From assembly GCF_005047635.1 (NCBI RefSeq), contig NZ_SUKC01000004.1, positions 124,001 through 188,000 of the forward strand: a stretch of DNA of 64,000 nt, given 5' to 3'. The notes under the pieces were generated by a model. It made no database searches. It saw nothing but the letters and a program-made list of their open reading frames with translations, and was not told where the DNA came from. This DNA comes from Arthrobacter sp. CAU 1506. GTDB taxonomy: Bacteria > Actinomycetota > Actinomycetes > Actinomycetales > Micrococcaceae. Shown piece by piece: positions 45,572-61,027 of the stretch; the first letter of the stretch is position 1, and each line of letters starts with the position of its first letter. A program made the position numbers and the translations under genes.

Positions 45572-45609
45572 GGCTTCACTCCTGACACTGGGCCACCGCT
45601 GCCGGCCTC

Positions 45610-45630
45610 ATTTCAGCCTGCACCTGAAAT
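45610..45630. promoter_or_regulatory. Inverted repeat upstream of the SHOCT-oxidase operon
   Basis: ATTTCAG-CCTGCAC-CTGAAAT is a perfect 7-bp inverted repeat with a 7-nt spacer, 39-59 nt upstream of the SHOCT start codon. The spacing and position suit a dimeric repressor site. It does not match the CsoR or CopY operators known to me. Confidence 0.5.
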
Positions 45631-45714
45631 TAGGTCGATAGTAAGCCCAAATTGCCCTTCTGCAACGCTAAAAGAGCGGAAATGTCTCGCCGCCACCGGC
45701 GCCGGTCTGAAGGG

Positions 45715-46176: not shown

Positions 46177-46190
46177 GGCGTCTCCTAGAG

Positions 46191-46246
46191 ATAGATGAAT
46201 GTCTATATCTGGCAGATTGCCACCTGATATTGATATCTGTCAATAT
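46191..46246. promoter_or_regulatory. Two ArsR/SmtB-type operators between cadI and arsR
   Basis: ATATTGA-TATCTG-TCAATAT at 46227-46246 is a perfect 7-bp inverted repeat with a 6-nt spacer, ending 6 nt before the arsR GTG. A second site, ATAGA-TGAATG-TCTAT at 46191-46206, has the same 6-nt spacer and lies closer to cadI. Their AT-rich form suits ArsR-family dimers, implying joint control of both divergent units. Confidence 0.7.
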
Positions 46247-46252
46247 TGATGG

Positions 46253-46612
46253 GTGTCTAATTCTCTTCTCGAACTGACCCCCGTTGAGGCGGTTGCATGC
46301 TGCACGCCAATGACCCGTGAACCGATGACGAGCGAGCAGGCTGATCGTGTCTCCGGGCTAATGAAGGCCTTGGCGGATCCGGTCCGCCTGCAGCTGCTCT
46401 CCCTGGTCGCGTCCCACGAAGGCGGTGAGGCCTGCGTGTGCGACCTGACAGAAGCCTTCGACCTGTCCCAGCCCACGATCAGCCACCACCTGAAGGTGCT
46501 GCACCGGAGCGGGCTGTTGGAGCGCAGCAAGCGGGGCGTGTGGGTCTACTACAAGGTACAGGCAGACGTGCTGGACTCGCTGGGGAAACTGATCTCCAGC
46601 GCGGGGGCATGA
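46253..46612 (+). CDS. arsR: ArsR-family arsenic-responsive repressor
   Basis: A 119-residue winged-helix repressor beginning at a GTG. The N-terminus holds VACCTPM, with adjacent cysteines; the core is LMKALADPVRLQLLSLVASHEGGEACVCDLTEAFDLSQPTISHHLKVL cut across helices, including the CVCDL metal-sensing motif at the start of the DNA-binding helix. The wing reads SKRGVWVYYKV. It overlaps the aquaporin start by ATGA. Autoregulation via the upstream palindromes is likely. Confidence 0.92.
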   Translation: MSNSLLELTPVEAVACCTPMTREPMTSEQADRVSGLMKALADPVRLQLLSLVASHEGGEACVCDLTEAFDLSQPTISHHLKVLHRSGLLERSKRGVWVYYKVQADVLDSLGKLISSAGA

Positions 46613-47313
46613 GCGCACTCGCCCGGCGGGCACTGGCTGAACTGGTCGGGACTGCACTGCTGGTGGCCACGGTGGTGGGCTCGGGCATCGCGGCCACCCG
46701 CCTGTCTCCAGACGACGTCGGTCTGCAGCTGCTGGAAAACTCCTTGGCCACCGGGGCGGTCCTGGTCGCCCTGATCATCGCCCTGCAACCGGTTTCCGCG
46801 GCCTTCAACCCTGTGGTGACCTTGGTTGAACGATGGCTCGGTGTCATCGGCTGGCGCGAGGCTGCGGCCCTAATTGCAGCCCAAATGGCCGGCGGCATCG
46901 CGGGCAGTGTCTTGGCGAACCTGATGTTTGAACTGCCCGCCGTCACCATCGCAGCCAAGGAGCGCACCGGGTCCGGGCTTTGGCTGGCCGAAGTCGTCGC
47001 GACGGCCGGGCTGCTGCTGGTGATCTTCGGCGCCGCCCGGTCCGGACGCAAGGACATGGTTGCCGTGGCGGTCGGTGGCTACATCACCGCCGCCTACTGG
47101 TTCACCAGCTCCACCAGCTTCGCCAACCCCGCGGTGACGGTGGCGCGCATGTTCTCCGACACTTTCGCCGGAATCGCCCCGACCTCGGTCCTGCCGTTCA
47201 TCGCCATGCAGCTGATCGGCGGCGCCCTCGCAGCCGGGCTGATCCACCTCCTATACCCCCGCGCCGAACGGGCAGCGGCCGAATTCACCACCATCGAAGG
47301 ACAGACCCGATGA
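46609..47313 (+). CDS. MIP/aquaporin-family channel in the ars operon
   Basis: A 234-residue channel with six hydrophobic segments and two pore motifs: SAAFNPVVTLVERW (an NPV variant of NPA) and SFANPAVTVARMF (canonical NPA). It sits between arsR and arsC with 4-nt overlaps on both sides. In Sinorhizobium, AqpS in the same place lets arsenite made by ArsC leave the cell, and this is the likely role here. No ArsB or Acr3 pump is present in the window. Confidence 0.88.
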   Translation: MSALARRALAELVGTALLVATVVGSGIAATRLSPDDVGLQLLENSLATGAVLVALIIALQPVSAAFNPVVTLVERWLGVIGWREAAALIAAQMAGGIAGSVLANLMFELPAVTIAAKERTGSGLWLAEVVATAGLLLVIFGAARSGRKDMVAVAVGGYITAAYWFTSSTSFANPAVTVARMFSDTFAGIAPTSVLPFIAMQLIGGALAAGLIHLLYPRAERAAAEFTTIEGQTR

Positions 47314-47708
47314 CCAGCAAACCCACCGTCCTCTTCGTCTGCGTGCACAACGCGGGACGCTCGCAAATGGCCGCCGGTTATCTGCAGCACCTGGCCGGCG
47401 ACCGCATCACCGTCCTCTCGGCAGGCTCCGCACCCGGCAACCAGATCAACCCTGTCGCCGTGCAGGCCATGGCCGAGGAAGGCATCGACATCAGCCGCGC
47501 CGTCCCCAAAATCCTCACCACCGGCGCCGTCCAGGAATCCGACGTCGTCATCACCATGGGCTGCGGAGACACCTGCCCCTACTTCCCCGGCAAACGCTAC
47601 GAGGACTGGGTGTTGGACGACCCAGCAGGCCAGGAAATCGACATGGTCCGCGGCGTCCGCGACGACATCAAGAACCGCGTGCAGGCCCTCATCCGCAGCT
47701 TGGCCTAG
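47310..47708 (+). CDS. arsC: Arsenate reductase ArsC (LMW phosphatase-like)
   Basis: A 132-residue enzyme with the phosphatase-type P-loop FVCVHNAGRSQMAAGYL (nucleophile Cys11), then VITMGCGDTCPYFPGKRYEDWVLDDPAG. This GCGDTCP...KRYEDW form is typical of actinobacterial ArsC, where mycothiol and mycoredoxin can act as the reductant. It converts arsenate to arsenite, which would exit through the aquaporin encoded just before it. It overlaps that gene by 4 nt. Confidence 0.9.
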   Translation: MTSKPTVLFVCVHNAGRSQMAAGYLQHLAGDRITVLSAGSAPGNQINPVAVQAMAEEGIDISRAVPKILTTGAVQESDVVITMGCGDTCPYFPGKRYEDWVLDDPAGQEIDMVRGVRDDIKNRVQALIRSLA

Positions 47709-47840
47709 AAGGCTGTCTTAGTCCGGTGGAACTCGCCGCGTCCGCCTCGCAGAGACCGACTTTCGGCCGCTCGGGATAAATGGGCGGGCTGGCGCAGCAC
47801 GATGGATGAGTTGGTTGATCTCGGCTGATGGATATGCAAC

Positions 47841-47862
47841 TATCTACGCATGAATGCAGATA
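47841..47862. promoter_or_regulatory. Imperfect palindrome over the smtB-type start codon
   Basis: TATCT at 47841-47845 and AGATA at 47858-47862 flank a 12-nt spacer containing CGCATGAATGC. The site overlaps the ATG at 47850, so repressor binding here would block expression of its own gene and the coupled exporter. The match to known operators is only general. Confidence 0.45.
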
Positions 47863-48215
47863 AGCAGAAATGCGGGCTAAGCGTGGACAGCCAATACGTT
47901 GAGCTGGCGGTGGAAGTCTTTTCCATGCTGGCCGACGCAACCCGCGTCCGCATTATCCTGGCCCTGCGCGATCGGGAGCTGCCGGTCAACGATCTGGCTG
48001 AAATGGTGGGCAAATCCCCGGCAGCGGTGTCGCAGCATCTGGCGAAGCTTCGGTTGGGCCGTATCGTGGCAACCCGCCAGGAAGGGACAAGGGTCTTCTA
48101 CAGGCTGGAAAATGAACATGCCCGGCAATTGGTCACCGATGCGATTTTCCAAGCGGAGCACAGCCTCGGCGGAACGCCTTGGCACCACCGAGTCACCCCG
48201 GTCCAGGACTCATGA
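47850..48215 (+). CDS. ArsR/SmtB-family metal-sensing repressor
   Basis: A 121-residue winged-helix protein: FSMLADATRVRIILALRDRELPV, then VGKSPAAVSQHLAKLRLGRIV, then TRQEGTRVFYRLENEH. The C-terminal helix has HARQLVTDAIFQAEHS with His and Asp/Glu residues suited to the alpha-5 zinc/nickel/cobalt site of CzrA or NmtR-type sensors, followed by TPWHHRV. It overlaps the CDF exporter by ATGA, so that exporter's substrate (Zn, Co, Ni or Cd) is the probable effector. Confidence 0.9.
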   Translation: MNADKQKCGLSVDSQYVELAVEVFSMLADATRVRIILALRDRELPVNDLAEMVGKSPAAVSQHLAKLRLGRIVATRQEGTRVFYRLENEHARQLVTDAIFQAEHSLGGTPWHHRVTPVQDS

Positions 48216-49348
48216 GCGGGCCACGGGAGGAGGCCGCACTGCAGACCTCGCATCATCATGATCAGACCCATGGCCATGACAATCACGGGCACGGGCACGG
48301 GCCTGACGATCACGGCCACGGCCACGGGCCTGACAATCACGGGCACGGGCCAGACGATCACGGGCACGGCCACGAGCACGTGCACCCCAAGGGCATCCGC
48401 GGATTCTTCCACGACCTGTTCGTCCCTCACAGCCACGACACAGCAGATTCCATTGACGACGCCTTGGAATCGAGCGCCCGCGGCATCCGTGCTGTCAAAA
48501 TCAGCTTGGTCGTTCTGGGCCTTACCGCCCTGCTACAGCTGGCCGTGGTGGTCATCAGCGGATCGGTGGCGCTGCTGGCGGACACGATCCATAATTTTTC
48601 GGACGCCCTCACTGCCATTCCGCTGTGGATCGCATTCCTGCTGGGAAGGCGCAAGGCAACGCGTCGCTACACTTTCGGATTTGGCCGGGCCGAAGACCTT
48701 GCCGGACTGTTCATCGTAGCCATGATCGCTGTCTCGGCCGTCGGTGCAGCGTGGCAGTCGATCGACAGGCTGCTAAACCCCCAACCACTGCACAACCTGG
48801 GTTGGGTCCTCGTCGCGGGTCTTATTGGCTTTGCCGGCAATGAACTCGTGGCCGCCTACCGGATCAGGGTCGGCCGCAGCATCGGCTCCGCCGCGCTGGT
48901 GGCCGACGGGATCCATGCCAGAACCGACGGTTTCACTTCGCTTGCCGTCATTCTGGGCGTCATCGGCGTTTGGGCCGGCTTCCCGCTGGCCGATCCGATC
49001 ATCGGGCTGATCATCACTGCGGCCATCGTGGTACTGCTGTGGGGCACCGGCCGCGATATTTGCCGCCGATTGATGGACGGGGTGGACCCGGATCTTGTCG
49101 ACCGCACAGAAAGCATCCTGCGTGCCGCTGACGACGTCAGGGACCTGAACGAAGTGCGACTGCGGTGGAACGGGCACCGGCTTGAGGTCAGCGCCACCTT
49201 GGCGGTGGACCCCAGGATGTCCGTCGACGGCTACCACCGGCTCGAAGCCACCTTGGTCAGCCGGCTACGCGGCGAACTCCCCGGGGTGGGCCACATCACC
49301 CTCACTCCCGGCCCTGCCGCACACCGGTTCATCAGCCCCGGCGAATAG
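48212..49348 (+). CDS. Cation diffusion facilitator with His-rich N-terminal repeats
   Basis: A 378-residue CDF exporter. The first 50 residues are a His/Gly/Asp-rich region made of repeated DHGHGHGPD units, encoded by a tandem GGGCACGG-type minisatellite at about 48275-48375. The membrane part has six helices; metal site residues are in ADTIHNFSDALTAIP and ADGIHARTDGFTS. A C-terminal cytoplasmic domain follows. It should export zinc, cobalt or related ions using protons. It is cotranscribed with the SmtB-type repressor. Confidence 0.92.
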   Translation: MSGPREEAALQTSHHHDQTHGHDNHGHGHGPDDHGHGHGPDNHGHGPDDHGHGHEHVHPKGIRGFFHDLFVPHSHDTADSIDDALESSARGIRAVKISLVVLGLTALLQLAVVVISGSVALLADTIHNFSDALTAIPLWIAFLLGRRKATRRYTFGFGRAEDLAGLFIVAMIAVSAVGAAWQSIDRLLNPQPLHNLGWVLVAGLIGFAGNELVAAYRIRVGRSIGSAALVADGIHARTDGFTSLAVILGVIGVWAGFPLADPIIGLIITAAIVVLLWGTGRDICRRLMDGVDPDLVDRTESILRAADDVRDLNEVRLRWNGHRLEVSATLAVDPRMSVDGYHRLEATLVSRLRGELPGVGHITLTPGPAAHRFISPGE

Positions 49349-49360
49349 ACTCGGCCGGAC

Positions 49361-49570
49361 GCATGCCGGGCAGGTCCAGCAGTGGCTCAATCCCGACGTC
49401 CCGCAACTCCTCTGCGGGGCCGATGCCGGAACGCAGCAACTACTCGGGCGAATTTATGGCGCCGGCGGCGAGCACGGTCTCCCCCGCGACGAGGGTGTGA
49501 AGTTGACCATCCTTCTCGTATTCAACGCCGGTACGGCGCAAACAGTAGCGTCTGTCTTCCTCCCGTGTTT
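49361..49570 (-). pseudogene. GMC oxidoreductase (choline dehydrogenase-like) remnant
   Basis: Read on the minus strand, this segment gives RRTGVEYEKDGQLHTLV, then VLAAGAINSPE, an in-frame TAG at about 49440, then LLRSGIGPAEELRDVGIEP and LLDLPGM. These are the central signature of GMC-type FAD oxidoreductases (AGAINSPxLLLRSGIGP). Both the FAD-binding N-terminus and the C-terminal domain are missing, so only a nonfunctional 70-residue piece is left. Confidence 0.75.
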
Positions 49571-50112
49571 CATGGTCAGCGAAACACATAGTCCACCGCC
49601 GTGCCGCTGGGCGTTTCAAGCTACCCGGCCCCATACAGCCCTGCCGGCCCGCCAGCCCAAATTCCAGCGGTGTCCGACTCTTGACAGCAGCGGTGAGCAG
49701 TAGGAGCGTGGAGGGACGTTATTACAGTTCTATTGGCCCAAACTTAAAGTTTCATTAGAGGTTTGGCCACTAACTGTTAACCCGCAATCACCCAGCACCA
49801 AACGATCCCGGCAGCAGGTCGGCAGGGGCTTCCGGAGCCGTTCCGGAAGACGTCGCCGTTACCCCGAGCGTTCTTGAGGTCCGCATCGGCAAGTCGCGAA
49901 CGGATGGCGGCAGGTGGCATGGAGCGGGACACTGAATCGTCCTTGTGGAGCGGTCCGAGGGTCACATTCGCCTCGGAGCATCACTGTTCGCGCCAGGCCC
50001 AGCCGCGGTGTGTCAGCGAGCAACTGAGCTGGCACGGCACCCTGGTCCACACCCACGCATTCGCCGGTGGCCCGGTTTCGGCCGCCGGAGCACGGTTGGA
50101 GGCGGCCCGGCC
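49571..50112. other. Junction region upstream of the glycogen-synthase/APH locus
   Basis: About 540 bases without a recognised intact gene. An AT-rich patch at 49718-49780 is unlike its surroundings and could carry the locus promoter. It includes GGCCCAAAC and GTTTGGCC arms that pair with one bulge, enclosing the palindrome ACTTAAAGT. The stretch 49780-50110 has open frames on both strands but none with family signatures; it may be decayed coding DNA. Confidence 0.4.
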
Positions 50113-50353
50113 ATGAAGATCGCCTTCCTCGTGCGCAGGCCCGCTGAGGAGGGCCCGTCCATCACCCGGGATGTCGCGCAGCTGCTGCGGGCCTGGCGGG
50201 CCGGGGTCGACCTGATCAAACTGGACCCCCCGGCCCGGCAGCCTCGCCGACATCCGGCCGGAGCACGATGTCTACGTGCTGCGGACCGTGACCGATGCTT
50301 CGCTCAGCGTGGCCGACATCCTGGAGCGGCAGGGGCCCGCTGCGTCAACCTAA
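50113..50353 (+). pseudogene. Truncated, frameshifted ATP-grasp (RimK-like) gene
   Basis: The frame starts MKIAFLVRRPAEEGPSITRD and continues VAQLLRAWRAGVDLIKLD, the Rossmann-like pre-ATP-grasp opening of RimK-type ligases. A shift near the CCCCCCGG run at about 50226-50233 then moves the sense into another frame: LADIRPEHDVYVLRTVTDAS, LSVADILERQG, then a stop. The ATP-binding domain is absent. Only about 80 codons remain of a gene usually near 300. It lies directly before the glycogen-synthase fusion on the same strand, so it was probably once the first gene of that operon. Confidence 0.6.
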
Positions 50354-50435
50354 CGATCACGTCGGCCCGTAATGGCACGAGACGCGATGAGGTCATGACA
50401 GCGGTAGCCATAGGACCAGGACCGGCGGGTATACC

Positions 50436-52799
50436 GTGATCCGCAGCAACGGAACTACAGGCAGCGCGGTGTCCCAAACCGACCCTGCAGAGGAACTCCC
50501 AACTGTCCTGCCGCACCGGGCGCGGCGCATTATGTTCGCCAGTGCCGAGGCGTACCCGTTCATGAAGGTAGGCGGGCTGGCTGATGTCAGCAGCGCGCTT
50601 CCGCAGCGGCTGGCTCAGCTGGGCGTCGACGTGCGCCTAGTGATCCCGGCGTACCCGGGACTCAACGGAGACCCGTTGTTGACGTTCGACATGGACTATG
50701 GCCCCGTCGCCCAGATGGTCGTCGTCCGCAGCCTCCCGCCGCTGGGCGGAGTGGAGGTCCTCGCGCTCGACCTTCCGGGGTGGTTCGAACGGGCGGTCCC
50801 CTACAGCTATCAGGACGACGACGTGATGCCGTTCGTGCTGTTCTCGAAGGCAATCGCCGCTTTGGCGGCGCAAGGCCCTTGGCGTCCCGACGTCATCCAT
50901 TGCAATGACTGGCACTGCGGTTTGATCGCCCAGGAAGCCCGTCAGGGACCCCATCAGCGAGAACTGGCAGACACGGGCATCGTCTTCACGATCCACAATA
51001 TTGCCTATCAGGGGCGGGTCGGGGCCGCCACCGACCGGCTGATCGGGTTGCCCCCCGCAGGAACTCTCCTCGAGCGGGGCATCGCTTTCGCCGACAGGGT
51101 CAACACCGTCAGCCCCCACTACATGCAGGAAATCCTGACCCCAGCACACGGAGCGGGTGTTGACGGGCTGCTTCGTGCGAGGGTCGAAACCGTGCGGGGC
51201 ATTCTCAACGGGGTCGATTACGAGGAGTTCAACCCCTGCCGGGACCCGTGGATCGAGACCCACTATGACAATTCCTTCATCGCCGGCAAGCGCGCAAACA
51301 AGGTGGCCCTGCAGCGAATCAGCGACTTGGAGCCCGCACCGGACCGCCCGCTGTTTGGCATGGTCGCCAGGCTTGTTGCGCAGAAGGGCATAGGGCTGTT
51401 GTCATCGGCCCTCGACCAGTTCGTAGCGCGCGGGGCGCAAGTCGTCGTGATGGGCGAGGGGGCGCACCGGTACCGGCGCGAACTGAAAGCAGCGGTCCGG
51501 CGTTTCCGCGGCAGTGTGGCATTCCATCCCACGTCGCGAGAGTCCCTGGCCCGGCAGGTCTATGCGGGTTCGGACCTCTTCCTTGCTCCGTCCGTTTTCG
51601 AGCCCTGTGGGCTCACGCCGCTGATCGCCCTTCGGTACGGCACCATCCCCGTTGTCCGCCGAACGGGAGGACTGGCGGACACTGTGAAGGATTACGTCGA
51701 GGATCCAGCCGAGGGGCTGGGGTTCGTCTTCGTGCAGCGCCGTGTCTCCTCCATGCTGTCGGCTGTGGATAACGGACTGGCGGTGTACCGGCGAGCGCCG
51801 GAGTGGAATCGGCTGCAGCAACGGGCGATGAGGGCTGACTTCTCCTGGCGGGGACCTGCACGTGAATACGTGGCGCTGTACGAGGAGGCTGTGAACTCCC
51901 GCCGGGCAGGGAACGTCGTCAGCAGCGCCGAATCACCCGCCATCGCGATGTCCCGGTCGCGGCAGCGTTCCACTCCACTACCACTGGCGCTCGTCCAGCA
52001 TGCAAATCAGTTCCTGGTCACCGACGGCTATCGGGACCGGGAAGGCCTGACTGCGCTCGTAACCGGTTACGCCGCCCTGCTGCGGCTGCATGAAAAGTAC
52101 CGCGTCCCACTCAACCTCCATCTGTCCGGGACGATGGTCGAAGCAGCCGCCTGGCACGATCCCTGGTTCCTCGCGGAAGTCCGCCGGCTGCGCGACGTCG
52201 GCCTGATCTCACTCATCGGCGGAACGTACTCCGAAAGCATCCTCACGGTCTTCGACCGGGAGTTTATCCGGCGGCAGCTGCATGAACTGTTCTGGCTTTA
52301 CCGGCGCCACCTTGGATGTCCCCCGGCGGATTTGGAAATCTGCTGGATTCCCGAACGGGTGTGGGACACGGACCGCGTCGCGAAGGTGCTGACTGACCCG
52401 GCCCTGCCGAATGGCGGCTACCGGTATGTCCTGCTCGACGACCGGCTGCTGTACCCCACAGATGGCGCCCACGGCGGCAGTGACAGGGCGGACTTTGACG
52501 GCGCCGACCCAGCCAGTCCCCCTCCAGCCGACGCCCTGCGCCCTTACCGCATCGAAGGCGGCCACGGCCTGCAGGTGGTGCCGATGTCCACCCGGTGCGC
52601 TACTGGATTCCTCCGGATGACCGGAGCCACTGGCGCAGCCTGTCCCGGACAGCCGATCTTCCAACCGCCCCCGGTGACGACACCATTCTGGTTTATGCCG
52701 ACGACATGGAAAAGAGCGCCGGAGTGGGCCCATGGCACCCCAGCGCCCTTGGGAGGTACGAGGAGTTCCTCCGCTGGCTGGCCACCCAGCCGAACCTGA
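50436..52799 (+). CDS. glgA: GT5 glycogen synthase fused to a GH57 domain, 5' part of a frameshifted gene
   Basis: The reading frame starts at GTG 50436. Residues 30-480 are a GT5 glycogen/starch synthase: EAYPFMKVGGLADVSSALP (ADP-glucose-binding KVGGL at 44-48), HCNDWHCGL, FTIHNIAYQG, LNGVDYEEFNP, and FEPCGLTPLIALRYG near residue 389. From about residue 505 a GH57 glucanotransferase/amylase domain begins, with LVQHANQFLVTDGY and ICWIPERVWDTD (nucleophile about E640). At about 52593 one G appears missing in CCCGG/GTGCGC; the last 68 residues after that are out of frame. The GH57 continuation is in the next entry. Confidence 0.85.
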   Translation: MIRSNGTTGSAVSQTDPAEELPTVLPHRARRIMFASAEAYPFMKVGGLADVSSALPQRLAQLGVDVRLVIPAYPGLNGDPLLTFDMDYGPVAQMVVVRSLPPLGGVEVLALDLPGWFERAVPYSYQDDDVMPFVLFSKAIAALAAQGPWRPDVIHCNDWHCGLIAQEARQGPHQRELADTGIVFTIHNIAYQGRVGAATDRLIGLPPAGTLLERGIAFADRVNTVSPHYMQEILTPAHGAGVDGLLRARVETVRGILNGVDYEEFNPCRDPWIETHYDNSFIAGKRANKVALQRISDLEPAPDRPLFGMVARLVAQKGIGLLSSALDQFVARGAQVVVMGEGAHRYRRELKAAVRRFRGSVAFHPTSRESLARQVYAGSDLFLAPSVFEPCGLTPLIALRYGTIPVVRRTGGLADTVKDYVEDPAEGLGFVFVQRRVSSMLSAVDNGLAVYRRAPEWNRLQQRAMRADFSWRGPAREYVALYEEAVNSRRAGNVVSSAESPAIAMSRSRQRSTPLPLALVQHANQFLVTDGYRDREGLTALVTGYAALLRLHEKYRVPLNLHLSGTMVEAAAWHDPWFLAEVRRLRDVGLISLIGGTYSESILTVFDREFIRRQLHELFWLYRRHLGCPPADLEICWIPERVWDTDRVAKVLTDPALPNGGYRYVLLDDRLLYPTDGAHGGSDRADFDGADPASPPPADALRPYRIEGGHGLQVVPMSTRCATGFLRMTGATGAACPGQPIFQPPPVTTPFWFMPTTWKRAPEWAHGTPAPLGGTRSSSAGWPPSRT

Positions 52800-53947
52800 T
52801 ACCGGTGGATCTGCCGTCTTGGCTCGATCAACGCCGGAGGTCAGCCGGCGCCCGTGTCGTCGAACGCGGCACATTTGTGGAACTGGCCCAGGACTGGCAC
52901 GCGGGAGAAGACTATGGTGGCTGGAACCGGGACGAGGCGTGGTGCCCCTACCAGAAGCACCTCGCCCGGGCACGCCGTGCAGTGGCCGAGGCAGAGGGGG
53001 CAGGGGCCGAACCACGGCTGACGGCACTGGCCTGGAAGCACCTGCTTGCTTCGGCATATGAGACGGCCTGGCACGACGTCGACCGCCCGGACCGGCCGCC
53101 TGCAGCCTGGGCCAAGGCAGTCGCGAGCCATGGGCGCGCAACCGGCGTGTTGGTTGCCGCCGCCCAATGGTTTGGCAGCCAGGCGCGCTCCCTCGGGGCC
53201 GAGCTGGTCGATATCGACGACGACGGCATTGAGGAACTGGTTCTGAGAAGCGAGCACCTGTTCGCTGTGCTGGCCCCGGCTCACGGCGGTCGGCTGGTCT
53301 ACCTCGCGTGGCACGGCCCCGACGGCGGCGTCCTGACGGTCGGAAACCCGACCGACGACTGGAACCGCCAAGAGGAAATGAACAGCTACATGGAAGTACC
53401 CGCCAACCATCCAGGCGGGCTCGCCGACAGCGGCGGGGTGCACGACCGCCACGAAGTGACCCTCCACCGCGAAGACGGGGTGCTCCGGGCCGAGCTGACC
53501 AACGTGCAAGAGGGCAGCCAGTTTCACGGCCTCCGCAAAGAGATCGTCTTGGACAACGTCAGCCCTTCCTTGCTGGTGGCCTACCATCTGCCTGCGGCCG
53601 TACCTGCGATCACCGTCGATACGTGTCTGTCACCCGACTACTGCGGATTGCTCCGCTACGGCGCGGCAGAGCTGCAGCGCCAGGGAGGACCGAACTGGCG
53701 TGGTGTCCGCAACTGTGGGACGGCGGTGTGGGTTGCGCTGCCCGGCGACGAAGGCACCACCTGGTGCGACCCGGACGGTCCGGATCCCGGGCACGGCGTG
53801 CTTGTCCGCATGTGCGCCGAGGCGCGGTCGTTCCATCTGCTCATCGGGATCGGCGACATTGGCGACGATACCGCTGAACGGGCGGTGAGAGCCGGACGGG
53901 AACGGCTCTCCTACCTGGCTGCGGAAACGACGGGAGACCTGACATGA
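52595..53947 (+). CDS. GH57 C-terminal part, continuation of the fusion after a frameshift
   Basis: This frame continues the GH57 domain directly: VRYWIPPDDRSHWRSL, then ILVYADDMEKSAGVGPW, which holds the GH57 acid/base Asp (DDxEKxG-type motif). A helical region and a C-terminal beta-domain follow (LVDIDDDGIEELVLRSEHL ... GGRLVYLAWHGPDGG). There is no ribosome site at GTG 52595, so independent translation is unlikely. Together with the previous entry it would make a protein of about 1170 residues. The stop overlaps the first APH-fold kinase start by ATGA. The break could be a sequencing error, a real mutation, or recoding. Confidence 0.8.
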   Translation: MRYWIPPDDRSHWRSLSRTADLPTAPGDDTILVYADDMEKSAGVGPWHPSALGRYEEFLRWLATQPNLIPVDLPSWLDQRRRSAGARVVERGTFVELAQDWHAGEDYGGWNRDEAWCPYQKHLARARRAVAEAEGAGAEPRLTALAWKHLLASAYETAWHDVDRPDRPPAAWAKAVASHGRATGVLVAAAQWFGSQARSLGAELVDIDDDGIEELVLRSEHLFAVLAPAHGGRLVYLAWHGPDGGVLTVGNPTDDWNRQEEMNSYMEVPANHPGGLADSGGVHDRHEVTLHREDGVLRAELTNVQEGSQFHGLRKEIVLDNVSPSLLVAYHLPAAVPAITVDTCLSPDYCGLLRYGAAELQRQGGPNWRGVRNCGTAVWVALPGDEGTTWCDPDGPDPGHGVLVRMCAEARSFHLLIGIGDIGDDTAERAVRAGRERLSYLAAETTGDLT

Positions 53948-54969
53948 GCTACACCGGCGCGGCCGCGCCTGCCACTGCTACTGGGGCCGAACGGCTCGCG
54001 ATCGCCGAATCATTGCTTGCCTCACCTCCGCCACTCGATGCCCTGCCGCCCAGCCGGGTAAAGGTGCTGACCCGCTCCGTCGTACATGCCTCCCGGAGCC
54101 GGCCGGTCGTCCGGTGGACGGTGACGCTCGACCCAGGATCCGGCCCCTCAGCACCGCTCCCGGTAATCGGCAAGGCCTACCGCATGGGTGGCGGCGAGCA
54201 AGCTTGGCAACTGCTCAACGGCCTGCGCCATGCCGGCTTCGACGCTCCCCAACTTCGCGTTCCCGCACCGTACGGCTTCGATCCCGCCCGCCAACTCTTC
54301 GCACAGGAGGAGGCACCGGCCACCATCCTGCACTCGCTTCTAGAGGGCGATCCACAGGCAACAGCGCTTGAGGCCAGCCGGGCGGGCCGCTGGCTCGCCC
54401 GGCTGCACAGTATCCCGGATATGCGGGGCCTTCGGATCCCTGTCCTGGCGGAGGACTTCGAACACGCCAAGCTCACCGAGTACACCAGGGCATTGGCCGA
54501 CCTGCTGCCGCAGGCCGCCGTCCGGCTGGGAAGGCTCGCCGCGGGGACTTTGGCGGGACTTCAGCGGGTCGATGGAGGCCGCGTGATGACCCACGGTGAC
54601 TTCCAGCCTAAAAACATCCATTTGGACCGGCACAGCGTTGTTGTCATCGATTTCGACCGGGCCGCCTGGGCCCCTGCCGCACGCGACCTTGGTCACTTCA
54701 TCGGGCAGACCCTCACGATGGGCGCCGCGCGCCATGGGACCCTGCGAGCCGCCGCACCCTGGGTTGAGGCGTTCGAGGACGGCTATATCACGAGCGGTGG
54801 CGATGCGGGTGCCGTCAGTACAGCTCCTGCCTACGTTGCCCGTACTTTCGCAGAGGTGCTCTTCTACCGCCTTGTAGTCCGCCCTGTCAGGAACTCGTCG
54901 TTCGTGCCGGACTGGCTTGACGCGTGGGAAGCAGCCGTTGAGGCCGCATCGGGGTGTGGGTACCGGTGA
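53944..54969 (+). CDS. APH-fold phosphotransferase 1, catalytic loop intact
   Basis: A 341-residue protein of the aminoglycoside/choline kinase fold. The Brenner loop VMTHGDFQPKNIHLD has H217, D219 and N224; the metal motif VVIDFDRAAW has D236. AGRWLARLHSIP is the usual helix before the loop. It is the only one of four APH-fold proteins in this locus with all catalytic residues. The gene begins inside the GH57 stop (ATGA). The fold includes maltokinase, so a sugar or oligosaccharide substrate is plausible given the neighbours, but is not demonstrated. Confidence 0.85.
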   Translation: MSYTGAAAPATATGAERLAIAESLLASPPPLDALPPSRVKVLTRSVVHASRSRPVVRWTVTLDPGSGPSAPLPVIGKAYRMGGGEQAWQLLNGLRHAGFDAPQLRVPAPYGFDPARQLFAQEEAPATILHSLLEGDPQATALEASRAGRWLARLHSIPDMRGLRIPVLAEDFEHAKLTEYTRALADLLPQAAVRLGRLAAGTLAGLQRVDGGRVMTHGDFQPKNIHLDRHSVVVIDFDRAAWAPAARDLGHFIGQTLTMGAARHGTLRAAAPWVEAFEDGYITSGGDAGAVSTAPAYVARTFAEVLFYRLVVRPVRNSSFVPDWLDAWEAAVEAASGCGYR

Positions 54970-55046
54970 GGCGGTCCCGTTCGGGGGCCAGAGGGCCCGG
55001 CACCGCCTCTCGTCGCCACCCATCGGGTACCCCGGGCGAGCCGGTC

Positions 55047-56909
55047 ATGAGTGCCCGGCTGATCCTAAAGACCTTCGGACCGTTCCTGCGGCCGCAGTGG
55101 CTCGGGTGCGTGCTGGCCGCGTTGCTGGCAATTGCCGGCGCGGGTGTGGCGCTGCTCAAACCATGGCCGCTGAAGTACCTTTTCGACAAGGTACTGTTTC
55201 CCAGCGGTAGTCCGGCTCCCCAGAACGTGCAAACCATCCTTCTCCTCGTCATCGCTGCGTTGGGCGGCATCGCCATTCTGGACTCGCTGGTCAGCTCCGC
55301 GCGGAGCTACGTTCTCACGGTGGTCGGCGAACGTGTCGCAGCCTCCGTCCGGACGAAGCTGTACGACCGTCTCCAGCGGCTCCCGCTCCGCTACCACGAG
55401 CGGATGCCAACCGGTGAACTGACCACCCGCCTCACCGGAGACGTCGATAAAGTGCAGGCGCTGCTCACCGGAACGCTCGTGGACGCTTCGACGAATATCA
55501 TGACGCTGGCGGGCATGGCAGGGGTGCTGCTGATCCTTGACTGGCAGTTGAGTCTGGGGCTTCTGCTCACCCTGCCGCTGCTCCTGCTGACCGTCGCCGG
55601 TTTCCGCGCCCGTATCCGGGCTGTTGAGGAAAAATCCCGTGTAGTTGAGGGCGACATGGCCGCCGTGGCGCAGGAGGCGTTGGTGGCGATTAAACTCATC
55701 AAAGCCACGGGGAAGGAAGATCACGAGTCCCGGCGCTTCCGGGACCGTTCCAACGATTCTGTCGCCGCAGTGCTTCGCTCTGCGCGCACCAGCGCCGTCT
55801 TCGGAGCCGCGGTGGATGCTGTGGTGGCCACGGCCACGGCTGGTCTCATCTGGCTCGGCGCCCAGCGCGTACTGACGGGTGACCTTACCCCGGGCGATCT
55901 GGTGATCTTCACGTCGTACCTGCGTGACTTCTTCAGCCCAACGCGGGCCTTGTCTAAACTGCCGGCCCAGTTGACCCGGGCCGGTGTCCGCGCAGCACGC
56001 ATCGCGGACACTCTGCAACGCCCCCTGGAGCTGCAGGACAAGCCCGGGGCCCGTCCCGCGGCTCCGCCAAAGGAGAAGCTGAGCCTTGAGCGCGTAAGTT
56101 TCGCCTACACTGCAGACCGCCTCGTTTTGCGAAGCGTGGATTTGACCGTCCCCGTGGGCACCACTCTAGCTGTCGTCGGCCCCACGGGTGCGGGCAAATC
56201 GACGATCGCGGCCCTGATGTGCAGGCTTCAGGATCCCACCAGCGGCCGCGTCCTGCTCGACGACGCGGACTTACGCGACCTGACAGGCGAGAGCGTGCAC
56301 ACCCACGTCGGGCTCGTCACGCAGGAGGCATTGCTGTTCCGGGCGACGATCCGGGAGAACATTGCGTATGGGCGTCCTGACGCCTCACTGGACGAGATCA
56401 AGCGAGCCGCCCGTGCTGCCCTTGCCCATGACTTCGTGACAGCCCTCCCGCACGGCTACGACACGGTGCTGTCCGAGCGCGGGGCGACGCTGTCCGGAGG
56501 CCAAAGACAGCGGCTGGCGCTGGCACGCGCGGTCCTGCAGGACTGTCCGATCCTTGTTCTCGACGAGCCCACCACCGGCCTTGATGCCCGCTCCGAGCAT
56601 TCCGTGCTGCGCGCACTTCGCCAGGTCGCCTCCGGACGGACGTCAGTAATTATCACGCACCGGATGACCGCAGCAATGGCAGCCGACGATATCGTTGTCC
56701 TTGACGGCGGGCAGGTGGTGGAACACGGCACGCACCGCACACTCATAGCGGCGGGCGGACTCTACGCCGAGATGTGCCTGCTACAGGGCATCACAGGTCC
56801 ACGGCCGGTGCTGAAACGCAAGGGCGCCGGCTACAGACGCCCCGCTAACCCTCCCCGCGAAATCGAAGCGGACGAGCCCACTACCCATTTAGGGGAGTCC
56901 CGGCCATGA
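55047..56909 (+). CDS. ABC exporter, fused membrane and ATPase domains
   Basis: A 620-residue half-transporter. Six transmembrane helices occupy residues 15-300, beginning LILKTFGPFLRPQWLGCVLAALLAI. The nucleotide-binding domain has Walker A VGPTGAGKSTIAAL, the signature LSGGQRQRLALARAV, Walker B ILVLDEPTTGLDARS and the H-loop VIITHRMT. It is of the lipid/peptide/glycan exporter type and would act as a homodimer. The ATG at 55047 is preferred; the frame is open back into the previous gene. Its 3' end overlaps the next APH-fold gene by ATGA, so its cargo is probably made or modified by this locus. Confidence 0.88.
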   Translation: MSARLILKTFGPFLRPQWLGCVLAALLAIAGAGVALLKPWPLKYLFDKVLFPSGSPAPQNVQTILLLVIAALGGIAILDSLVSSARSYVLTVVGERVAASVRTKLYDRLQRLPLRYHERMPTGELTTRLTGDVDKVQALLTGTLVDASTNIMTLAGMAGVLLILDWQLSLGLLLTLPLLLLTVAGFRARIRAVEEKSRVVEGDMAAVAQEALVAIKLIKATGKEDHESRRFRDRSNDSVAAVLRSARTSAVFGAAVDAVVATATAGLIWLGAQRVLTGDLTPGDLVIFTSYLRDFFSPTRALSKLPAQLTRAGVRAARIADTLQRPLELQDKPGARPAAPPKEKLSLERVSFAYTADRLVLRSVDLTVPVGTTLAVVGPTGAGKSTIAALMCRLQDPTSGRVLLDDADLRDLTGESVHTHVGLVTQEALLFRATIRENIAYGRPDASLDEIKRAARAALAHDFVTALPHGYDTVLSERGATLSGGQRQRLALARAVLQDCPILVLDEPTTGLDARSEHSVLRALRQVASGRTSVIITHRMTAAMAADDIVVLDGGQVVEHGTHRTLIAAGGLYAEMCLLQGITGPRPVLKRKGAGYRRPANPPREIEADEPTTHLGESRP

Positions 56910-58123
56910 CGGAGCCTAGCTTCCAGCCAGTGCCGGGTCGCGTCGCGGGTTCCACCGGCGGCTCCGCGTCGGACCCCGCCTCCATTGGCGGCGTCGGCAA
57001 CGCGCCCTCCGGCAAGGCGGAGCCGGGTGCCGGCCTGACCGGCCGGCGGCTGCACAACTCGGTGCCCCGCCAAGACTGGCGCTTGACGGCGGCGGCGGAC
57101 GAACCACTGCTGTTCCGCGTGTTGGAGGCCGCGTACGACCTTGGCCGCTGGCGGGTGTGGCACCGCGCCAAAAGGGGTACCTCAAACCTCAGTTGGTTTG
57201 TCAGCACGGACGCGGGTGAGGTCGTGCTGCGCCGCTCGCACAACCTGAAGACGGTGGCGGGCGCACAGTTCGAGTGTTCGCTCATCGATCACCTGCGCCG
57301 CCACGGCTACCCGGCCCCGCCCATCCAGCGCAGCCGTGACGGCGCGATCTGTGTCCAAGTCGGGGGTGTCCTGCATACGGTCATGCACCTGATGCCCGGC
57401 CATGCTTTCGATCCCGGCAACACCGACCAACTGGCCGCCGCTGCGCAGGGTCTTGCCCGATACCACGCCATCGTGTCCAAGCTGACGCCGGCGGAGCAGG
57501 ACCGCTCCTCGGGCCTGGCTGCCCTTGGGCACATGGGCCAGGAGCATCTGTTCGCCGCGATCGACGTCGTGTCGCCACTGCTGGACGTCAACGCCGGAGC
57601 GGAGGTGCAGGAAGAAGCCCGCTATCTGGCCGGCAGAATGGAGCAACTGAACATCGGGCTCGGGCAGCGGCAGAAGGACCTAACCGCTCTGGCGATCCAC
57701 GGATCCTACGGCCAGTCGGCTCTGCTGTTCGACGGGGGCCTGCTGACCGGTGTGCTTGACTTCGACAGGTCAGCCCATGACCTGCTTACTCTGGATCTGG
57801 CCTATGCAGTGAGGTCATTCTGCCGCCAAGACCCGGTCGGCGGCCCCGGGGACGACATCGATAAAGACCTCTGCCGGACCTTCCTCCGGCATTACCGCAG
57901 CCACACCCCGCTGGCGGACACGGACTTGGCCGCCCTGCCGGAAGTCTTCCAAGCCCACCGGCTGATCAGGATCGCCAAGAAGTGCAACAACTTGCTGATC
58001 AAGCAGGTGATCGCGCCCCGGCAGCCCAAGGACGCCCACAGTTTCGCGCGGTTGCTGAAGCGCGAGGGCGCACTGGTGCGCTGGCTCACCGAAAATCCCA
58101 TCACCTTAGCGGAGGACGCATGA
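56906..58123 (+). CDS. APH-fold protein 2, catalytic Asp and Asn replaced
   Basis: A 405-residue protein with a 60-residue low-complexity N-terminus, then an APH/choline-kinase fold: FVSTDAGEVVLRRSHNL (N-lobe lysine position is Arg), LAAAAQGLARYHAIVSKL, and the catalytic loop LAIHGSYGQSALLFDGG. Where active kinases have HxDxxxxN this has H265, S267 and A272. The later metal motif GVLDFDRSAHD (D285) is kept. AGGGGAG lies before the ATG. It may be a pseudokinase or carbohydrate-binding scaffold. Four-nt overlaps join it to both neighbours. Confidence 0.82.
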   Translation: MTEPSFQPVPGRVAGSTGGSASDPASIGGVGNAPSGKAEPGAGLTGRRLHNSVPRQDWRLTAAADEPLLFRVLEAAYDLGRWRVWHRAKRGTSNLSWFVSTDAGEVVLRRSHNLKTVAGAQFECSLIDHLRRHGYPAPPIQRSRDGAICVQVGGVLHTVMHLMPGHAFDPGNTDQLAAAAQGLARYHAIVSKLTPAEQDRSSGLAALGHMGQEHLFAAIDVVSPLLDVNAGAEVQEEARYLAGRMEQLNIGLGQRQKDLTALAIHGSYGQSALLFDGGLLTGVLDFDRSAHDLLTLDLAYAVRSFCRQDPVGGPGDDIDKDLCRTFLRHYRSHTPLADTDLAALPEVFQAHRLIRIAKKCNNLLIKQVIAPRQPKDAHSFARLLKREGALVRWLTENPITLAEDA

Positions 58124-59154
58124 ACCGCACCGAAATCCGAGCCCAGAGCCGTCAAGTCAAAGAGGAACAGGTCAGCCGTGCAGCATGGGTCTGCACACCA
58201 GAGTTCCTTGACCGCTACATCCGCCCGCACCTCGGCGCTGCAGGCGCAGACGCCACGGCCGACGGCGGCACCTGGACCACAAACGTGATTCAGCTGGACG
58301 GCTCGGGGGCCGCCACGGTACAGGTCGAACTCGACGGCAGCGCCCCCGTCTTCGCCAAGCTGTTCCCCTTCGACGACGGACCTGCGGTGCACGCAAAACT
58401 GCAGACGATGCGTCACGCCGGGCTGGGAGCAGGGTCACCGTATCAGGTCGTCGAGCCCCTGGCCTGGTACGGGACAGAGAAGATCCTGCTGTGTCAGGGA
58501 GCCCCCGGCCGGCCGCTCTCGGCGCTGCTCGACGACGGCGCTGGACTCGTCGAGGGGTGCGCCCGTGCGGGAGCGTGGCTTGCCCACCTGCACGGCATGG
58601 AACCGCGGATCGGTGCCCCCCAATCCCTCCTGGTGACGGGGGAACTGACGAGCCTGGCCAAACGCCTCGCCAAAGTGGTGACCGAGCGCCCGGATTATAT
58701 CGATACGGCTCTGGGCATGCTCAGCCGCCTGGACGCCCTCAGCCACGACACCGTGGACGGCATCCTGGCACAAAGCCACGGGCAGTACCGCCCTATCCAT
58801 GTTTTCCTCACCGACGACACGGTCACCGTGATCGACCTCGACCGCAGCGCGCCGGCAGACCCCGCCCGCGACGTGGCCGAGTTCCTGCACCGGGTGCGCC
58901 AAGGCGTTCACGCTGCCACCGGCGACTTTTCCCGCGCCGATCAGCCATGCGCCGCGTTCCTCGACGCATACCGGGCGGCCGCCGGCGGTGAACGGCTGGC
59001 GAATTTGCGCTTCCACTGGGCGCGATACATCTTCCACAGCCTCAACCGGGAGATCAAGAGCGGCGAAGCTGACTGGCGGAACGGCGGTAACACCGCATTC
59101 CGGCACTACCGGGACGAGTTCTATCGGGTGGCGGAAGGACGGGCAGGAGCATGA
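58120..59154 (+). CDS. APH-fold protein 3, catalytic Asp and Asn replaced
   Basis: A 344-residue APH-fold protein starting MNRTEIRAQSRQVKEEQ, with GGAGG six bases before... the start ATG at 58120 (GGAGGACGCATG). The N-lobe has APVFAKLFPFDDG, keeping a lysine; the helix ARAGAWLAHLHGME leads to the loop ILAQSHGQYRPIHVFLTDD, where H220 is kept but Asp is Gln222 and Asn is His227. TVIDLDRSAPADPARD retains the metal aspartate D239. The frame opens earlier (57982) but that part lies in the preceding gene. The function is unknown; the catalytic loop argues against ordinary kinase chemistry. Confidence 0.82.
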   Translation: MNRTEIRAQSRQVKEEQVSRAAWVCTPEFLDRYIRPHLGAAGADATADGGTWTTNVIQLDGSGAATVQVELDGSAPVFAKLFPFDDGPAVHAKLQTMRHAGLGAGSPYQVVEPLAWYGTEKILLCQGAPGRPLSALLDDGAGLVEGCARAGAWLAHLHGMEPRIGAPQSLLVTGELTSLAKRLAKVVTERPDYIDTALGMLSRLDALSHDTVDGILAQSHGQYRPIHVFLTDDTVTVIDLDRSAPADPARDVAEFLHRVRQGVHAATGDFSRADQPCAAFLDAYRAAAGGERLANLRFHWARYIFHSLNREIKSGEADWRNGGNTAFRHYRDEFYRVAEGRAGA

Positions 59155-60188
59155 CGCCCTCTGTGAGCATGCTGCTGGACCGTGCCGGGCAGGAGTTCCC
59201 GCTGGCCGAGCTCGCGAATTTATGGCCCCTGGGCGGCTGGACGTCCGTTACGCCGGTCACAGGCGGCAAAAACGAGCACCTGCGCGTCACCGCCGGAAAC
59301 GGCATCCACTACCTGCGCCGCTCGTACCGGTCCAAACCGCATGAGGAACTCACCCGTCAGTTGTATTTGATGCGGCTGCTCCGGGACAGGGGATTCCCGG
59401 CACCGGAGGTGGTGCCCGCCTGCTCCGGAGAGAATCACGTCGACCTTGCCGGTCGTCTGTGGATTGCTACCCGGGCCGTCGAGGGGACGCCGTTCGACAA
59501 CGAGTCGCCGGCCCATGTGCGCGCCTTGGGACAGACGCTCGCAAGGTACCACCAGATCGTTGCCGACCTGCCCGCTGTGGTGATCGAGCCGCCGGTACTC
59601 ATCGAGTTGCGCAGGCTGAGCAAGGAAGAGGGGGTGGATCCGTCACTGCGTGCCCGGACGGCGCACTTGGTGGAGCGGCTGACCTGCCTGTTGCCGGGCC
59701 TGCCCCGGGTGGTGGTGCACGGCGGCGCCCGGCGCGGCAGTCTCATCTTCAACGGCGATCAGCTGGCAGGAGTTCTGGATTTCGACAGTTCCCACCCGGA
59801 CGTGCGGGTTCTCGATCTTGCGGTCGCCGTCCATGATGTCAGCAAGGTGTACACGAGCCAGGGGCAGGAGGACCACAAAGTGGCGCTCAACCTCAACCGG
59901 GTTACCGACCTGTTGGCCGCCTATAGCCGGGAGATGCGGCCGACGGCTGCCGAGGTGGAGGCGCTGCCGCTGCTGCTGGAGGCCAAACGCCTGAAGCGGG
60001 ACCTGGGGCGCCGCAGCCGGGCCCGGAGCGGAGAAGCCCTCTCCGAAAACGATCATGCAAAGATCCGGCTGGAAGACCAGCGGCTCGCCTGGCTTGACGG
60101 GCATCGGGACGCTCTGTTGGCCGCCTGCGACAGTGCGCTAGCACGGGTCCCCGAGTCATCCCAGGCACGCCCTCGCGAAATCCGCTAG
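59151..60188 (+). CDS. APH-fold protein 4, catalytic Asp and Asn replaced
   Basis: A 345-residue APH-fold protein, last in the operon. The N-lobe has VTGGKNEHLRVTAGNGIHYLRRSYR with Arg at the usual lysine; ALGQTLARYHQIVADL precedes the loop RVVVHGGARRGSLIFNGD, where H190 is kept, Asp is Gly192 and Asn is Ser197. GVLDFDSSHPDVRVLDLA keeps the D-x-D motif (D210). GCAGGAGC precedes the ATG, which overlaps the previous stop by 4 nt. No terminator with a T-tract follows before the decayed aldehyde dehydrogenase. Confidence 0.82.
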   Translation: MTPSVSMLLDRAGQEFPLAELANLWPLGGWTSVTPVTGGKNEHLRVTAGNGIHYLRRSYRSKPHEELTRQLYLMRLLRDRGFPAPEVVPACSGENHVDLAGRLWIATRAVEGTPFDNESPAHVRALGQTLARYHQIVADLPAVVIEPPVLIELRRLSKEEGVDPSLRARTAHLVERLTCLLPGLPRVVVHGGARRGSLIFNGDQLAGVLDFDSSHPDVRVLDLAVAVHDVSKVYTSQGQEDHKVALNLNRVTDLLAAYSREMRPTAAEVEALPLLLEAKRLKRDLGRRSRARSGEALSENDHAKIRLEDQRLAWLDGHRDALLAACDSALARVPESSQARPREIR

Positions 60189-60269
60189 TGACAGATTTCT
60201 GGTTGGGTGACTAGTTGTGTGACGTCATCCACCTTGACAGTTAGGTTCCCTCTGCCCGTCTCATAGGGT

Positions 60270-60655
60270 TTAGCCGGCGATGACCTGCGGCGAGCCGAGC
60301 TGCTTGAGGCCCTCGACGCCGAACTCCCGGCCGCAGCCGGACTGCTTGGCACCGCCGAACGGCACGCGCGGGTCGATCGCACCGTGCTTGTTGATCCAGA
60401 CCGTGCCGGCCTCGATCCGGGCCGCTACCTCGCGGGCCTTGGCCGGCTCGGAAGGCCAGACCGAGGCACCCAGGCCCACCTTGAGTCCGTTGCCATCTGC
60501 ACGGCCTCATCCACCGTGGAGTACTTGATGACCGGCAGCGCCGGACCGAACTGCTACTCGGCCACCAGCGTGGCCGGGTAGAAGCTGCCGGCCTGGCCCT
60601 CCCCCGGGTTACCGCCGGTCAGCACGCGGGCACCGGAATCCTGCGCGGCCTGTCA
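60270..60655 (-). pseudogene. Aldehyde dehydrogenase remnant
   Basis: On the minus strand, the segment reads SGARVLTGGNPGEGQAGSF, then YPATLVAE, an in-frame TAG at about 60567, then QFGPALPVIKYSTVDEAVQMA. A one-base deletion near 60497 follows, and the sense continues in another frame as VGLGASVWPSEPAKAREVAARI, EAGTVWINKHG, VPFGGAKQSGCGREFG and LGSPQVIAG with a natural stop at 60270. This is the C-terminal third of a NAD-dependent aldehyde dehydrogenase (betaine/aminobutyraldehyde type). The catalytic Cys region and N-terminus are missing. Confidence 0.8.
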
Positions 60656-61027
60656 GGATCCGGAACTTCTCAGGTTTGCGGACATTCTCAAGCGGGACTT
60701 TATTGATAAGGGTCGAATGGGACGAGCCACCGGAAGCAGGTTCTACGACTACGCGTAGTCCCGACGGGACCGGCCTGTCTGAGCGATGTTCAAAAGTCTT
60801 GTTGTTCAAACAGGTCGGCGTTTCACGGCGAGGAGGGGACCTGCGACGAGGACTGTAGTTGCCAGGCCATTTGGTCCCAAGGACCATTCCGCTCCCCGCG
60901 TTGACGCGGCGGCACGAGCCCGGCCATATCTTCCCGTGGTCAAACTAAAGGAGATTCATTCGACAGCTGCGACCTCGATGTTGCGCAACGGCGTGCGGCG
61001 GGCCGGCCGGAGCCGTACGGTAGCCGG
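60656..61027. other. Intergenic region, no intact gene seen
   Basis: About 370 bases between the aldehyde dehydrogenase remnant and the next gene. The minus-strand reading LINKVPLENVRKPEKF near 60670-60715 looks like a protein tail but was not assigned. TGGTCC-CAA-GGACCA near 60874-60888 is a short palindrome. The last 100 bases presumably hold the promoter of the following gene. Confidence 0.35.

Follow-up and report, generated by a model that had tools for sequence, protein, structure and literature searches.

Our analysis of a 64,000-nucleotide stretch of Arthrobacter sp. CAU 1506 (the whole stretch being referred to as the window: positions 124001-188000 of contig 34, NZ_SUKC01000004.1, of a 4.24 Mb genome) identifies a six-gene operon, in which a glucan synthase domain fused to a glycoside hydrolase domain (GT5-GH57) is followed by an APH-fold protein (APH1), an ATP-binding cassette (ABC) exporter and three further APH-fold proteins (APH2, APH3 and APH4). 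The operon is real, conserved and, as far as searched, undescribed, and its function can be inferred in outline only. We suggest to read it as a self-contained module that would make and export a predicted alpha-glucan-derived glycan or glycoconjugate, phosphorylated by a single kinase, with pseudokinases acting as scaffold or substrate-presenting subunits. We regard this as a serious possibility while remaining somewhat more doubtful than convinced. It is based on gene content, conserved gene order, the motif state of each protein and co-occurrence, from which the reactions are inferred.

We predict one kinase (APH1) and three conserved pseudokinases (APH2, APH3, APH4) because only APH1 keeps the catalytic Asp. 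Residues were counted on alignments of 24 (APH1), 8 (APH2), 22 (APH3) and 12 (APH4) rows. Both the catalytic Asp of the HxD motif and the first Asp of DxD are present in 24/24 APH1 rows, and the metal Asn position holds Asn in 20 and His in 4 of them. The catalytic position of APH2 is Ser in 8/8 rows (Asp in 0/8), with the metal Asn replaced by Ala (7) or Ser (1); APH3 has Gln (15), Arg (6) or Ser (1) at the catalytic position (Asp in 0/22) and His for the metal Asn in 22/22; APH4 has Gly (11) or Ser (1) (Asp in 0/12), and Ser for the metal Asn in 12/12. The first Asp of DxD is retained in every row, from APH1 to APH4. Outside these tallies stand APH1 of loci L037, L047 and L078, APH2 of L048 and L050, APH3 of L039, L047 and L050, APH4 of L042, L044 and L051, as well as the fragmentary copies of L043 and L056. 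The whole genes among them likewise keep the Asp in APH1 and lack it in APH2, APH3 and APH4; APH4 of L044 departs from its group in having kept the Asn, its Asp being lost (to Gly). When the profiles are aligned to homoserine kinase 2ppq, its HAD and N face the residues that are replaced in APH2 and APH4. Lys80, which we take to be the ATP-binding lysine, is invariant in the APH3 alignment. A small control was provided by eight other APH-like matches in the same genome, judged by eye: seven have the Asp (L133, L136, L137, L139, L142, L143 and L144, of which L144 reads as a protein kinase) and one, L135, has Glu. An earlier note on the window had listed four APH-fold proteins; with three of them devoid of the catalytic Asp, a reading as four kinases is not supported.

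The neighbourhood recurs among relatives of the fusion. Genome contigs were scanned with the GH57 profile, and the best 80 of 158 confirmed relatives are split by a gap in E-value: 32 loci (L041-L069, L072, L073 and L078) lie at or below 4e-77 and the other 48 at or above 3e-31. According to tblastn, eight named loci carry the full order GT5-GH57, APH1, ABC, APH2, APH3, APH4 on the same strand (Pseudonocardia alaniniphila L042, Nocardioides jiangsuensis L045, Arthrobacter/Pseudarthrobacter L046-L050 and Geodermatophilus ruber L051), and such sharing of order and strand is more than chance. APH2 is fragmented in L043 and was not found in L052, L055 and L056, and only APH1, ABC and APH4 are present in L044 (Cellulomonas aerilata). 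An APH match is found in 26 of the 32 close loci and an ABC match exceeding 400 residues in 28. The former is missing in L060 and L061, where the contig ends inside GH57, and in L064, L066, L067 and L068, where the sequence continues; the latter is missing in L053, L060 and L061 (contig ends in GH57) and in L062. The distant loci, 20/48 of which span at least 15 kb, serve as a partial control: an APH match was found in 0/48 and a full ABC match in 0/48, with a partial ABC ATPase match in four (L082, L090, L098, L116). The neighbourhood check proposed in the earlier note therefore turned out in its favour, in that APH-fold and exporter genes recur beside GT5-GH57 relatives and are not scattered.

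Within the phylum, a fusion-length match occurs in 2/396 genomes, the own genome and G338 (two candidates scored per genome), and the APH3 profile (five candidates scored per genome) matches strongly in the same two genomes and weakly in G188 and G448, where the stretches concerned hold APH-like open reading frames (ORFs) of other make-up. Only the own genome has a match among the 10 genomes of the genus, and among 148 relatives, leaving the own genome aside, one has a GH57-only match (G064) and three more have GT5-only matches. Plasmid-borne relatives were sought by a protein search of PLSDB, which gave no APH1 match, and GT5-GH57 was covered to 80% by none of its records. Over 15-25 loci, the distances of the operon genes correlate at 0.94-0.98; computed among operon genes only, these figures stop short of proving co-inheritance. 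The exporter tree places Pseudonocardia and Geodermatophilus copies in one unresolved group with Arthrobacter copies; several branches are long, and the exact place of the window's copy is not resolved. This topology would fit transfer between actinobacteria, without proving it.

In the window itself, Pfam confirms the order given in the earlier note, with all genes on the plus strand between 50436 and 60188: GT5 then GH57 at 50436-52796, APH at 53944-54966, ABC_membrane and ABC_tran at 55044-56906, and three APH matches downstream of the exporter at 56906-58120, 58120-59151 and 59151-60185 (Table 1). The ATGA overlaps at 53944, 56906, 58120 and 59151 are real. The exporter start, held to be the sole gap, is uncertain: the frame is open upstream, and the start-picking rule sets the exporter start at the APH1 stop in L043, L046, L047 and L048. 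Because a GTGA at 54966 overlaps the APH1 stop, the gap may not be real and the exporter may be coupled to APH1 as well. The 'ATP-grasp remnant' that had been counted as part of the set is unsupported: Pfam gives nothing at E<=10 for the two frames tried, 50113-50436 and 50240-50350, and tblastn with the former found no counterpart at 1e-5 in the 83 loci searched. ABC_membrane and ABC_tran in one chain identify the exporter as a half transporter in which transmembrane domain (TMD) and nucleotide-binding domain (NBD) are fused, and among the NCBIfam matches listed for it (25 of 187) no family lies over its cut-off.

Table 1. Coordinates of the operon genes in the window.
Feature	Position	Strand	Evidence
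GT5 ADP-glucose-type glucan synthase and N-terminal part of GH57 4-alpha-glucanotransferase-like domain	50436..52599	+	TIGR02095, PF08323, PF03065
Rest of GH57 (DDxE region) and C-terminal domain, other frame	52595..53947	+	VYADDMEKSA kept in relatives
APH1, predicted active kinase, HGD....N and DxD intact	53944..54969	+	PF01636 48.6 bits; Asp 24/24; pLDDT 90.5
ABC exporter, fused TMD-NBD half transporter; start 54966 (GTGA overlap) or 55044	54966..56909	+	PF00664 174.9, PF00005 110.5 bits
APH2, predicted pseudokinase of the homoserine kinase / YtaA branch, HGS....A with retained metal Asp	56906..58123	+	
APH3, predicted pseudokinase and APH1 paralogue, HG[QR]....H; no variation at metal Asp or Lys80 in its alignment (A5)	58120..59154	+	
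APH4, predicted pseudokinase, HGG....S, metal Asp kept; APH2 paralogue	59151..60188	+	

The first gene exceeds the glgA cut-off (TIGR02095, 442.7 bits vs 328.45), its GT5 region is also matched by PF08323, and GH57 is matched by PF03065 (44.6 bits). The motifs KVGGLADV and EPCGL (GT5) and WIPERVW are conserved in relatives; the GT5 motifs are retained, as are WxPER[VI]W and DDxE of GH57 wherever sequence is covered, and we presume the catalytic roles of these motifs. The nearest solved GH57 of the G338 homologue is the 4-alpha-glucanotransferase 1k1w (E 1.3e-4). GlgA and 1k1w are the closest known enzymes for the two domains; the operon differs from both in that the domains are fused and stand beside a kinase, pseudokinases and an exporter. 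A term search of the first 300,000 of the 445,374 characters of a 2024 review did not find such a fusion (PMC11046441). Twelve of the 13 named relatives with the fusion (L042-L052, L055) have it as one ORF of 1166-1277 residues, while the thirteenth, L056, has several genes in pieces. The window copy itself is not one intact frame. Its GH57 Glu and Asp motifs are both present, split over two frames (one frame in 12 relatives), with a frame change near 52595, inside the catalytic domain, and the remainder of GH57 and the C-terminal domain in the other frame (52595-53944). The GT5 frame stays open to 52799, and its homology to G338 stops near residue 719, at about 52592; in the second frame, a match to AmyA-gluTrfs_C has E 0.04 and is below cut-off. 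The G338 copy has a frame change at a different site, ahead of the C-terminal domain. The fusion claimed in the earlier note hence holds for the relatives and not for an intact frame here, where the break may be a sequencing error or may reflect decay of the operon in this strain.

For the alpha-glucan module that we favour, the following course of events is conceivable. GT5 would extend an alpha-1,4-glucan chain from ADP-glucose (glgC being in the genome), and the fused GH57 domain, of 4-alpha-glucanotransferase type, would trim the chain or move a piece of it onto an acceptor. APH1 would phosphorylate the acceptor or the product, while APH2, APH3 and APH4 would transfer no phosphate and would either hold substrate or enzymes or perform an altered reaction. 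The exporter would take the product out, probably to the surface. Consistently, glgC lies over its cut-off in 12/14 carriers searched; the L044 genome stands at 422.9 vs 424.9 bits.

Several points weigh against this reading. (i) The genome of G338 has weak glgC matches only. (ii) A GT5-made alpha-glucan is not essential to the wider module, because distant versions of it are without GT5 and four of their genomes (L057, L062, L063, L069) are without GlgA over cut-off. (iii) The operon genes include none recognizable as attaching a glycan to lipid or wall. (iv) Since GH57 is broken in this genome, the pathway may be inactive here. (v) Pseudokinase status is a motif-based prediction, and a protein that has lost the Asp need not be inactive; RosX, which lacks the kinase residues, is reported to be an enzyme of another kind (PMC12291118). 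(vi) L064, L066, L067 and L068 combine GH57 and ABC with no APH match, and (vii) L062 combines APH and GH57 with no ABC match.

The same glucan genes would also be expected if GT5-GH57 were a storage enzyme of intracellular glycogen turnover, with the APH and ABC proteins sensing or regulating it and with no exported product. The GT5 of the operon is the sole strong PF08323 match in the genome, which also holds glgC, as this alternative would have it. We nevertheless consider it improbable: among the neighbours, a full-length exporter recurs most often, and GlgA over cut-off is found elsewhere in 7/11 carriers searched whose locus is without GT5. These seven, which come from Acidobacteriota, Chloroflexota and a deltaproteobacterial metagenome-assembled genome (MAG), nonetheless keep GH57, APH and ABC together.

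A different product, namely a small phosphorylated pseudo-oligosaccharide serving as secreted inhibitor or antibiotic, would fit the adjacency of kinase, transferase and exporter. Acarbose and streptomycin are phosphorylated inside the cell, exported and activated outside by a phosphatase, and APH1 might likewise keep a compound harmless until the exporter expels it and an outside phosphatase activates it. Antibiotic kinases, corramycin phosphotransferase for example, are among the solved structures related to the APH1 profile, and phosphatase-type neighbours occur in some loci: G338 (L037) has phosphodiesterase-fold and sulfatase-fold genes in the operon's gene run, and L072 has a PTP-type phosphatase. 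However, the gene cluster with the PTP-type phosphatase was observed in L058 and L072 only, the phosphodiesterase/sulfatase pair recurs in no other group, no cyclitol, aminosugar or nucleotide-sugar gene is among the six operon genes, and three conserved pseudokinases would be left unexplained, so that we deem this alternative unlikely.

The kinship of the APH-fold proteins shows two paralogue pairs, APH1/APH3 (hhalign E 1.2e-39) and APH2/APH4 (E 9e-46). A single ORF of 828 residues in L078 (11239-13722) joins an APH1 with its kinase motifs to an APH3 that has lost them, and this natural fusion supports the existence of a predicted kinase-pseudokinase complex. It is then tempting to speculate, albeit as a doubtful extension of the alpha-glucan module, that the operon encodes a glycan-export machine with a single active kinase inside an assembly of dedicated pseudokinases: the two lineages would each have duplicated, and the inactive copies would have been fixed across phyla with residues of their own (HGQ/HGR....H, HGS....A and HGG....S), for presenting the glucan or acceptor to GT5-GH57, kinase and exporter, or for a non-kinase step.

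For each of the four APH proteins, all NCBIfam families listed score below their cut-offs. APH2 and APH4 find their best solved match in homoserine kinase 2ppq (E 7.3e-17 and 3.5e-19, respectively; NahK entries match too), and differ from ThrB (HSK2) in the replaced catalytic Asp and metal Asn and in scores of 78.2 and 72.7 bits vs a cut-off of 271, such that ThrB was rejected. We likewise do not file APH2 as a spore kinase, because it is below the cut-offs of both CotS (TIGR02906, 44.4 vs 172.7 bits) and CotI (NF053880, 33.6 vs 550); the L078 relative, at 60.8 vs 172.7 bits with the CotS model, is also below. Maltokinase, hinted at in the earlier note, is not supported: of the solved structures that the four APH profiles match at E<=0.01, none bears that name, the matches being other APH-fold proteins, and a maltokinase-like candidate lies elsewhere in the genome (G000:C8, L142). 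Its HGDYHLGQVL motif, which we take to be maltokinase-like, sits in an ORF running into GlgB-like sequence (by eye), so that it is possibly the maltokinase-branching enzyme of this genome.

The APH models are confident (predicted local distance difference test, pLDDT, 90.5 for APH1 and 89.9 for APH3) and resemble APH-fold kinases generally, with Foldseek query TM-scores of about 0.45-0.61 among the matches listed (50 each). LxmKY stands in both lists and TvaE in that of APH3, which brings to mind the tailoring of ribosomally synthesized and post-translationally modified peptides (RiPPs): the APH-fold proteins would act on a ribosomal peptide in the manner of LxmK, RosX or TvaE, and the exporter would secrete it. 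The LxmK model, a class V lanthionine synthetase subunit, is weakly matched by APH1 and APH3 and by four APH3-type relatives tested, in three of which it is the best match, and RosX and TvaE are themselves reported to be kinase-fold proteins without catalytic residues that act in lanthipeptide pathways (PMC12291118). The scores of APH1 and APH3, however, are 37.6 and 25.7 bits vs a cut-off of 315, and TM-scores of about 0.5-0.6 are common to many APH-fold kinases in the same lists. Moreover, no lyase is among the six operon genes, while LxmK is an APH-like kinase partnered with a lyase (PMC12141560), and the operon APHs keep the metal Asp, whereas RosX is reported to lack Mg-binding residues (PMC12291118). 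Nor did a peptide system come to light, although small ORFs were not screened. Taken together, RiPP tailoring appears highly improbable. We know of no place for GT5 and GH57 in RiPP pathways.

The closest precedent is provided by the spore-coat kinase and pseudokinase clusters of CotS and YtaA/CotI (with CotSA/YtcC and ytcA/ytcB/ytdA), in which APH-fold proteins are likewise clustered with glycosyltransferases and nucleotide-sugar genes. The genes ytaA and cotS are reported to cluster in this way, and five spore kinase members to have lost the same Asp, in independent losses (PMC2860764). The APH2 profile matches YtaA (2q83, E 1.5e-11) and also the CotS model, and a nucleotide-sugar counterpart may be seen in Cellulomonas aerilata, where a 763-residue ORF (L044:15004-17292) consists of an APH4-type domain followed by a UDP-glucose/GDP-mannose dehydrogenase. 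In contrast to the spore clusters, the operon has GT5/GH57 and an ABC exporter in place of CotSA-type transferases, comprises one kinase and three pseudokinases in fixed order, and is far below the CotS/CotI cut-offs. Extracellular alpha-glucan is known from Mycobacterium tuberculosis and Aeromonas, where other genes serve to make and export it (PMC11046441).

No described pathway with this gene set was found in the literature searched, outside which lie most subscription journals and all bioRxiv preprints, and in this respect the earlier note stands. Its proposal of an exported glucan-derived compound is still the best reading, while the maltokinase hint, the ATP-grasp gene and the idea of four kinases are not supported. 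Kinase/pseudokinase APH sets beside glycan enzymes were already known; the combination with an exporter and a GT5-GH57 fusion is, as far as searched, new. Bacterial APH-fold pseudokinases have previously been described in connection with spore coats and with peptide antibiotics. The operon offers a compact soil-actinobacterial case: its gene order is fixed, an intact kinase serves as internal control, and fusions of APH1 with APH3 and of APH4 with a dehydrogenase occur naturally. Two questions become testable, namely which role APH pseudokinases play in glycan assembly, and which alpha-glucan product is exported by which pump.

In Acidobacteriota, Chloroflexota and a deltaproteobacterial MAG, the module is found with no GT5 in the locus. 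GH57, three APH and ABC are present in four acidobacterial loci (L058, L065, L072, L073); the deltaproteobacterial L078 (Myxococcota in the exporter tree) has GH57, the APH1-APH3 fusion, APH2 and ABC; L054 (Chloroflexota MAG) has GH57, five APH and ABC; L059 (acidobacterial MAG) has GH57, APH and ABC; and APH, GH57 and ABC are found in L041 (Chloroflexota), L057, L063 and L069. A large protein is encoded downstream of the ABC gene at about 17200-21200 in L058, L065, L072 and L073 (the L072 protein is an outer-membrane beta-barrel that carries a carboxypeptidase-regulatory domain), and the PTP-type phosphatase gene of L058 and L072 lies between the ABC and large-protein genes (tested in L072). 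In the loci without APH match (L064, L066, L067, L068), GH57 precedes ABC exporter units, two of which share one ORF (L064 being the locus tested). Nearby lie a gene for a LuxR-type response regulator (L067 being the locus tested) and genes that by eye look SARP-like, FAD-monooxygenase-like and cyclase-like; these loci possibly represent a natural-product cluster. In G188 (L128:8459-15999), a GT4-type glycosyltransferase is accompanied by a 1289-residue ORF joining an ABC exporter and an APH domain, with no GH57, and a further ORF is APH-like by eye with no Pfam match. Near-identical ORFs (5432-6193 and 14307-15032, by eye) flank the APH-GH57-ABC triplet region of L038 (uncultured Arthrobacter) and may mark a duplication or mobile unit. 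Beside the G338 operon, L037:1751-3418 encodes an ELWxxDGTAxGT-type repeat protein (by eye), with no Pfam match at E<=0.001.

As for the surroundings in the window, an anti-phage defence system found no support: PADLOC, given all six proteins, matched the ABC protein only (mad3, mad8, AriA) and none of the other five. No RNA element reaches the Rfam gathering thresholds in 49000-61000. The G+C content of 1-kb blocks is 65-68% in 50000-59999 and 61.5-65.4% elsewhere in 42000-63999, with one block at 70%, and is not diagnostic. Ten flanking or nearby genes were tested, and the six-gene operon looks self-contained because the flanks differ among carriers of the GT5-GH57 fusion (luciferase-like, peroxidase, DUF4232, MDMPI and one unmatched). 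Upstream, at 43842-49348, multicopper oxidase-like, ArsR-like and arsenate-reductase-like genes (by eye) together with a cation efflux protein (Pfam) form what looks like a metal-resistance island adjoining the operon.

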